Assembly (NCBI GenBank): GCA_017404785.1 | Contig: JAFRBQ010000008.1 | Location: 230,212-294,211, forward strand | Source: Erysipelotrichaceae bacterium | GTDB lineage: Bacteria; Bacillota_I; Bacilli_A; Erysipelotrichales; Erysipelotrichaceae | Length of the DNA: 64,000 nucleotides | Reading direction: 5' to 3' | Part shown: one piece after another, positions 15,356-17,675 of the stretch | Position numbering within the stretch: position 1 is the first letter of the stretch | How the letters are laid out: the number at the start of each line of letters is the position of its first letter | The notes under the pieces: model-generated | What the model was told of the DNA's origin: nothing | Databases searched by the model: none | What the model saw: only the letters and a program-made list of their open reading frames with translations | Position numbers and translations under genes: made by a program

Positions 15356-16387
15356 ATGTGTACAAGTATCGTAGTCAATAAGAAGAAGACGATCATTGGC
15401 TGGAATCTGGATATTCTGGATATGGAATATCGGATCAATGAGAATGACGATGGTGTCTACATCGAGATAAGCGATGCCAAAGAAGGCTGGATGCCTTTGT
15501 TTGGCGGTAACAGCCGAGGTGATTTTGTTGGCATGCCTACCTGCTGGCCCTTTGATCAAAGAAGCGATCCCATCTCAGATGAAATCAGTATCATAAACCT
15601 CGATATCGATCTGCTGCTCAAGAAAAAGACTTTGAAACAGATAAAGGAATACGTTGAAAACAATCCAGTCTGCAGTGTTCCTGGTATGACTTTCATGGGA
15701 GCTCTGTCGGATAAGGACGGCAATGTCCTGCATATAATTCCGGGACAGGGATTCAAATATTATGAAAGACCGGAGTATAAAATCCTGACCAATTTTTCGC
15801 CTTTTAAAGGAGACAGTGAAAAACATCCTTGGATGGGCCTTGATCGCTATGAAAAGGCAGAAGAGATGCTGAAAAAGGCAGGCGATGATTTTGCGGTAGC
15901 TGACTGCTTTGAGGTACTGAAAGCTGTATCTCAGGAAATATGTCCGACGGTCGTATCAATGGTATTTGATATTGATGAGAATACGATCTACTGGTGTGAA
16001 AACAGGGACTATGAAAATATAAAGAAACATTTATTCATAAAAGACAACAGAAACATCGGCTATTGCGGCATAGATTGTTTTAAATGTGATGCTTATCTGG
16101 CAACAGTAAACAACGATGATGAACTGCGTGAAAAGACAGCAAAACTGTGGAGTGAATTGAATCAGACCAAGATCTTTCCGGAACAGATCAACTGTCAGGG
16201 ATGCCGTTTTGACGGAAAGAAGACTTTCTTCTGTGATCAGCTCTGTGAGATCCGCAAATGTGCCATGAAAAACGATGTCGAAACATGCGCTTCATGCGAC
16301 AAAATGAATGATTGCGATATTCTTTCCAGGATCACTATCAACAATCCTGAAGCAAAAAGAAATCTTGAAAAGCTGAAGGATAATTAA
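15356..16387 (+). CDS. Ntn hydrolase (choloylglycine-hydrolase-like) fused to DUF3795
   Basis: A 343-residue two-domain protein. The N-terminal part starts MCTSIVVN, so removal of Met would expose a nucleophile Cys as in the linear amide C-N hydrolase/choloylglycine hydrolase family; GWNLDILDMEY, NSRGDFVGMP and VPGMTFMGALSD fit that fold. From about residue 232 a Cys-rich DUF3795 domain follows (NIGYCGIDCFKCDAYLAT, then CQGCR, CDQLC, CAMK and CASC), a probable metal-binding module. GGAG precedes the ATG. It is the third gene of the TetR operon. The fusion is unusual; the substrate could be an acylated small molecule or peptide, but this is inference. Confidence 0.78.
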   Translation: MCTSIVVNKKKTIIGWNLDILDMEYRINENDDGVYIEISDAKEGWMPLFGGNSRGDFVGMPTCWPFDQRSDPISDEISIINLDIDLLLKKKTLKQIKEYVENNPVCSVPGMTFMGALSDKDGNVLHIIPGQGFKYYERPEYKILTNFSPFKGDSEKHPWMGLDRYEKAEEMLKKAGDDFAVADCFEVLKAVSQEICPTVVSMVFDIDENTIYWCENRDYENIKKHLFIKDNRNIGYCGIDCFKCDAYLATVNNDDELREKTAKLWSELNQTKIFPEQINCQGCRFDGKKTFFCDQLCEIRKCAMKNDVETCASCDKMNDCDILSRITINNPEAKRNLEKLKDN

Positions 16388-16403: not shown

Positions 16404-16439
16404 TAAAAAAAACAGCTATCCGGTTTTGGATAGCTGTTT
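16404..16439 (-). terminator. Terminator of the DUF4430 lipoprotein gene
   Basis: A 12-bp perfect stem AAACAGCTATCC / GGATAGCTGTTT with a 6-nt loop. The T run (complement of 16404-16410) is on the minus strand; the plus strand has only a short T tract. Confidence 0.85.
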
Positions 16440-16452
16440 GCATGATTATAGC

Positions 16453-17475
16453 TTACTTGGCATCAAGATAATAGGCCAGGTTGAGCAATGATGCGTTTTC
16501 GATTTTGGCGTTGCCTTCAAGATCTGCATACCATTGAACTACATAGATGTTGGTAACAGGATTCTGAGTGACAGTTTCACCTCTTACAATGCCAATGTAG
16601 TTGGTACCATTTACGACCTGTTTTGCGACCAGTACGATCGGATTGAACTTCATACCGGTATAGCTTTCCATGGCTTTTTCAAATGATGTCTGAGCAGCTT
16701 CATCTGAGAACATGCCTGCCTTGCCTGTAGTTGTGGCAGTCCAACCGCCGAACAGATGCTGATTTTCTTCGCCGGTAGTCAGGACATAGTCAGGTTCGAT
16801 CTCAATTGCCGAAAGCAATTCAACATCGCCTTTGGTATTCTTGTTGATCTTGACGATATAGAATGATTTCTTCGGGTTGGCTGTGACGGTCGTACCCTGA
16901 GCCAGATAGGCGTAGTTTGTACCATTTACGACCTGGGTAGCGATGACCTGGATCGGTGTATAGCCAACGCCTACCAGACCTTCGATAGCTTTTTCAAATA
17001 TCTGTTTTTCTTCTTCGCCTAACAGCTGAGTATATCCATCAACACCTTCCCAGCCGCCGACCTTTGTATCGGTTTTTTCAGCGGTATAGATGAATGAATA
17101 CAGGACGCCATCTTCGACCGGAACGTTTTCCACTGTTCTGTTTACTGATTCGCCACGGACACAGAAATCCCAGTATGTGCCCTGATCAAGCGATGTCTCG
17201 ATACCATTGATGGTTTTGACGACTTTGTAGCCGCCGATATCCATCGTGTCAAATGTGAAATTGGCACTCTTATCTGCTGAAAGTTCGTTCAGAACATCAT
17301 ATACCGTGCCGGCATCAGTAGCCAGATTATAGTTCTTTTCTTCACCGTTATTGTCTACGACTTTGATCATGACTTTGTTTTTGCCATTGCCGATGACTTC
17401 TTCCTTCTTGCCTGTGCAGGCAGAAAGAGTCAGACCCATCAGTAATGCCAATAATAATACAGTAATCTTTTTCAT
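16453..17475 (-). CDS. DUF4430 lipoprotein with two cystatin-like repeats
   Basis: A 340-residue lipoprotein. The signal peptide ends at LTLSAC (Cys near residue 20). Residues about 30-140 form a DUF4430 (transcobalamin C-terminal-like) domain: VMIKVVDNNGEEKNYN...GTVYDVLNEL...YWDFCVRGESV. Two repeats of about 105 residues follow, each with an identical QVVNGTNY motif (181-188 and 286-293), the same as the first binding loop of animal cystatins, and each ends in a long beta-strand segment (FYIVKIN / IYVVQWY). Each repeat also has a helix before the motif (EKAIEGLVG / EKAMESYTG). AGGAGG lies 8 bases before the ATG. It may inhibit Cys peptidases or bind small molecules at the surface; neither is proven. 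Confidence 0.82.
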   Translation of the reverse strand: MKKITVLLLALLMGLTLSACTGKKEEVIGNGKNKVMIKVVDNNGEEKNYNLATDAGTVYDVLNELSADKSANFTFDTMDIGGYKVVKTINGIETSLDQGTYWDFCVRGESVNRTVENVPVEDGVLYSFIYTAEKTDTKVGGWEGVDGYTQLLGEEEKQIFEKAIEGLVGVGYTPIQVIATQVVNGTNYAYLAQGTTVTANPKKSFYIVKINKNTKGDVELLSAIEIEPDYVLTTGEENQHLFGGWTATTTGKAGMFSDEAAQTSFEKAMESYTGMKFNPIVLVAKQVVNGTNYIGIVRGETVTQNPVTNIYVVQWYADLEGNAKIENASLLNLAYYLDAK

Positions 17476-17675
17476 TGAAAATAACCTCCTCTTATTATCG
17501 GTTTAGGGAACATAAACTGTTCCACTTAAATTATACGATAGAGAAAATAAACGTGTCAGTTGCCGATGTTTTCCGTTCAGATCTTTTTACTTCGTTTTTT
17601 TTATGGCACTTCTTGAAGATAAAAGGCTATATACTGAATATTTATTGGGCTGATATTTAGGTCAAAATACATTAA

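Follow-up and report, generated by a model that had tools for sequence, protein, structure and literature searches.

The window, a stretch of 64,000 nucleotides from an Erysipelotrichaceae bacterium, carries at 16453..17475 on the minus strand an open reading frame whose translation is a surface lipoprotein of 340 amino acids, with a DUF4430 domain followed by two stefin-like domains. Residues 1-19 form a signal peptide (17419..17475, minus strand) with the lipobox LSA-C, Cys20 being encoded at 17416-17418, and lipoboxes are present in the majority of the orthologues within the genus. On the same strand, a ribosome-binding site, AGGAGG, lies at 17485..17490, a promoter-like site (CTGACA-18-TATAAT, 11 of 12 positions, by consensus match only) at 17530..17559, and an intrinsic terminator-like hairpin at 16410..16439. 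The gene looks monocistronic. Profile searches of the genome, which is 76% complete, found it as the sole DUF4430 gene and the sole member of its family.

The neighboring genes encode a TetR regulator, a CPBP/CAAX protease, a DUF3795 protein, and an amidohydrolase, and no gene for a C1 protease or other partner protease was seen among them. Synteny was confined to the closest relative (loci L032 and L003), and the flanks were short at many other loci, so the gene context is uninformative on function. One gene in the window, at 15356-16387 on the plus strand, encodes an N-terminal half that resembles a C59-type Ntn hydrolase by eye and has no Pfam match, fused to a Cys-rich DUF3795 domain.

The DUF4430 match (PF14478) covers residues 57-123 (17107..17307, minus strand) and is indicated by both the Pfam profile and the fold; it scored 24.7 bits in the genome search, where the cut-off is 23.8, and 21.4 bits in an hmmscan of the protein. 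In the predicted structure, the domain extends over approximately residues 31-134 and is of the transcobalamin beta-domain type, akin to one portion of the proteins that carry vitamin B12. This part of the model matched 3u7z with a Z of 15.8 at 1.8 Å and the beta-domain of transcobalamin and intrinsic factor with a Z of ~15. A phmmer search of the whole protein against the PDB returned a sole, weak match, of intrinsic factor to the DUF4430 part (E 0.11). The initial annotation had described a secreted lipoprotein in which DUF4430 precedes the repeats, and the lipobox, the domain match, and the fold all agree with that description.

Cystatin-like character of the two repeats

The remainder of the protein consists of two repeats of ~90 residues each, which are 36% identical and in each of which a GGW is followed by a QVVNG motif. 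Repeat 1 spans residues ~139-229 (16789..17061, minus strand; profile E 2.5e-28; a helix and four strands in the model) and repeat 2 spans residues ~241-336 (16468..16755, minus strand; profile E 7e-26; modeled as a single domain); these E-values are biased in favor of the repeats, since both were included in the 30-row profile. The motif QVVNGTNY was confirmed to occur twice, identical in all eight residues and 105 residues apart, as had been noted initially: at residues 181-188 (16912..16935, minus strand), in a turn between two strands of the model, and at residues 286-293 (16597..16620, minus strand), in a hairpin turn of the single-domain model. Both are predicted to be the first binding loop. 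Because both 8-mers occupy the equivalent position of two homologous repeats, the recurrence is not due to chance. At the DNA level, the two motif stretches (16597-16620 and 16912-16935) are identical at 23 of 24 positions, despite the ~36% protein identity of the repeats, possibly through local gene conversion or by chance. In L003, the closest relative, the motif of repeat 1 reads QLVNG.

An hmmsearch of the PDB sequences was carried out with a profile (A2) of 30 sequences of the stefin-like domain and its bacterial relatives. The top 22 matches were all cystatins or stefins, with the N-terminal Gly and QxVxG in register, and the best were the secreted Fasciola type-1 cystatin 6i1m (6.4e-8), Cystatin-A2 (3e-5), and stefin A (1.2e-4). 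The gathering score of the Pfam Cystatin family (PF00031) was not reached by any single sequence, the window protein scoring 11.0 bits and the best relative 21.4 bits against a cut-off of 22.2; this miss reflects the library threshold and is not a biological feature. Neither repeat contains a Cys residue, and thus disulfide bridges are absent, as in type 1 stefins. As a candidate for the second binding hairpin, a beta4-beta5 hairpin was predicted; its Y and G columns are conserved, and it has no PW. We use the name stefin-like since the window protein is a lipoprotein, whereas type 1 stefins are cytosolic and have no signal peptide.

The AlphaFold model of the full-length protein (pLDDT 88.8) showed a helix and four strands in each repeat, and the model of repeat 2 alone (pLDDT 89.3) showed the alpha+beta4 cystatin fold with a loop-1 hairpin. 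The repeat 2 model superimposed on cystatin E/M with a Z of 9.3 (2.9 Å over 89 residues), on CsStefin-1 with a Z of 8.5, on chicken cystatin with a Z of 8.3, and on papain-bound stefin B with a Z of 7.7, and cystatin C was also included among its best structural matches. Cystatins also ranked at the top of a Foldseek search with repeat 2 alone, with weak E-values (best, 9e-3), and the VIA-align Z of 8-9 for cystatins left a small margin over monellin-type folds (~7), latexin, fetuin, and monellin being among the structural matches. Several single cystatins aligned with the full-length model over a range covering both repeats, so that an exchange of strands between the repeats is possible. The initial annotation had likened the repeats to animal cystatins, and this reading was supported by the profile homology to solved cystatins and stefins, by the alpha+beta4 fold predicted both in the full-length protein and for repeat 2 alone, and by the conserved N-terminal Gly and QxVxG; the motif loop is predicted to be a beta-hairpin turn and not a metal site. 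Judged from profiles and models, the repeats are genuinely cystatin-like.

Distribution and conservation of the family

Searches with the repeats found relatives in the genus to which the window belongs (26 of 61 genomes; one genus out of 17). In a sample of the phylum, relatives were found in three of 392 genomes, two of which belong to the same genus, the third being a marginal match. The relatives in a species collection came from Erysipelotrichaceae, Clostridia, Synergistota, Fibrobacter, Pseudomonas, Shewanella, Pseudoalteromonas, Chryseobacterium, and others, and most of the closest named relatives originate in the gut of ruminants (rumen, omasum, duodenum, and jejunum). The architectures comprised single domains of 85-100 amino acids without a signal peptide (as in Pseudomonas and Chryseobacterium), lipoproteins with one or two of the domains, two-domain proteins that end in a lipocalin-like tail, and DUF4430 with a double domain. 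At L034:932-2053 and L037:4815-5954, two stefin-like domains are followed by a C-terminal Lipocalin_4-like domain, with no N-terminal DUF4430. In a lipoprotein at L024:1318-3150, a single stefin-like domain precedes a Listeria-Bacteroides repeat and a weak Hint-like domain, an unusual architecture for a protease inhibitor.

A phage origin of the family was rejected after a search of 50,697 phage records yielded no match, and so was plasmid carriage, as the Pseudomonas form has relatives on only three plasmid records. Annotated copies on plasmids are labeled hypothetical or uncharacterized and the Pfam Cystatin profile misses the family, which therefore merits a profile of its own.

Conservation was assessed on a non-redundant set of 51 domains from the genus, collected by whole-domain homology; the loci of the species collection were kept out of this comparison because QVVNGTNY had been one of the search patterns there, which biases them. 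Conservation peaked at the N-terminal GGW and at QxVxGxNY: the G of QxVxG was invariant (100%), Q and V were present in 94% and 92%, and the N-terminal Gly and W in 90% and 92%, whereas the average over all columns was 50%. QxVxG was found in 46 of the 51 domains, being missing from five, and the N-terminal Gly likewise in 46. The orthologue at L018:516-1580 has lost QxVxG from both repeats (RLVSG and RVGDG) and, from its sequence, is possibly non-inhibitory. In a tree across the genus, in which many inner forks were weak, the first repeats clustered together and the second repeats likewise, indicating that the tandem is an old duplication of which both copies have since been kept. This old tandem, together with a motif largely kept in both copies, argues that an inhibitory function may have been retained in both repeats.

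Proposed function and relation to known systems

The computations show the homology to cystatins, the fold as predicted, the conservation of the binding residues, the signal of a lipoprotein, and the tandem duplication, while protease inhibition, bivalency, the target, and the benefit to the cell are inferred. The protein is probably a two-domain inhibitor of papain-family (C1A) cysteine proteases, anchored in the membrane and facing outward. In each repeat, the N-terminal Gly trunk and QxVxG hairpin would wedge into a papain-like active-site cleft, and one molecule could block two protease enzymes, one per stefin-like repeat, with the DUF4430 domain serving either as a spacer that holds the inhibitors off the membrane or as a ligand binder.

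It seems rather unlikely that the inhibitor regulates papain-like proteases of bacteria, its own or those of neighboring bacteria, instead of eukaryotic ones. Large C1 peptidases are encoded by some members of the genus, and C1A enzymes occur widely among bacteria (PMC10380794). However, the only C1-family match (PF00112) in the window genome, at 76% completeness, covered 40 residues of a 444-amino-acid, PepC-like cytoplasmic protein, which ruled it out as a secreted papain. In 22 genomes of the genus searched for both, the stefin was found in two of the five with strong C1 peptidase matches and in 13 of the 17 without them, and as its presence does not track these matches, there was no sign of self-regulation. 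An external target is favored, since no partner protease adjoins the gene and the C1 enzyme of its own genome is only this cytoplasmic one.

We also regard it as unlikely that the cystatin fold has been reused for binding unrelated to proteases, such as adhering to a surface or capturing a ligand, in which case DUF4430 would be a further binding module. The transcobalamin-type domain and the reused cystatin-like folds among the structural matches are compatible with such a role, but the N-terminal Gly and QxVxG, which would wedge into the protease, are among the best conserved positions, including in the genus set collected independently of the motif. An intramolecular swap of segments between the repeats, by which the loops would be straightened and the protein would be mainly structural or inactive until opened, appears very improbable: the alignment of many single cystatins across both repeats of the full-length model fits a swap, whereas repeat 2 alone models as a complete domain with the loop-1 hairpin, loop 1 of repeat 1 also breaks between strands in the full model, and single-domain relatives exist.

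The targets of a two-domain inhibitor of C1A proteases would most likely be foreign, either digestive cathepsins of bacteria-eating gut ciliates or host cathepsins. Entodinium caudatum, a rumen ciliate that feeds heavily on bacteria, expresses 41 C01A transcripts, with cathepsins among its abundant proteases (PMC6925433), and among the lysosomal proteases that Tetrahymena induces on bacterial prey, papain-like enzymes are the most abundant (PMC7232342). Phagosomal cathepsins of bacteria-eating ciliates would be the best-fitting target. Cathepsins of the animal host are a possible one, and predatory ciliates are no less plausible, given that the close relatives come mostly from ruminant guts. 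We tentatively raise the possibility that a bivalent stefin on the surface shields gut bacteria from digestion by blocking the phagosomal cathepsins of ruminant-gut ciliates, that is, that it acts as a dedicated anti-predation inhibitor.

The protein is less unusual than the initial annotation had suggested, as relatives occur in many bacteria and bacterial stefins were reported in 2009 by Kordis and Turk, who found them in eight bacterial phyla and proposed that they inhibit cysteine proteases of eukaryotes and serve in defense against host proteases (PMC2784779). Their stefins came from Clostridia, Shewanella, Pseudoalteromonas, and others, with Clostridia as the only group within the Firmicutes (PMC2784779). 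The literature has documented bacterial stefins as sequences ever since, and no functional or biochemical test of any of them was found. Secreted, duplicated stefins, whose kin are found mostly in ciliate-rich ruminant guts, offer a system for asking why bacteria keep eukaryotic-type protease inhibitors.

With the type-1 cystatins (stefin A/B and Fasciola 6i1m), the repeats have in common the N-terminal Gly, the QVVxGTNY loop, the absence of disulfides, and the alpha+beta4 fold, whereas most animal stefins are single domains located in the cytosol, with low sequence identity to the repeats, which miss the Pfam cut-off. Kininogens and plant multicystatins likewise carry several inhibitory cystatin domains per chain, but they are eukaryotic, are not lipoproteins, and have no DUF4430. 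The DUF4430/transcobalamin beta-domain proteins (3u7z of Ruminococcus gnavus, transcobalamin, and intrinsic factor) share the fold of the N-terminal domain; the window protein, in contrast, has no cobalamin-binding alpha barrel and carries stefin-like repeats fused to that domain. Like the bacterial stefins described previously (PMC2784779), it has a stefin-type domain with conserved inhibitory motifs, and it differs from them in being found in Erysipelotrichaceae and in being lipid-anchored, tandem, and DUF4430-fused. What is new is the combination of two stefin-like domains and a DUF4430 domain of the transcobalamin type in one surface lipoprotein, present in a single genus of Erysipelotrichaceae that come mostly from the ruminant gut.
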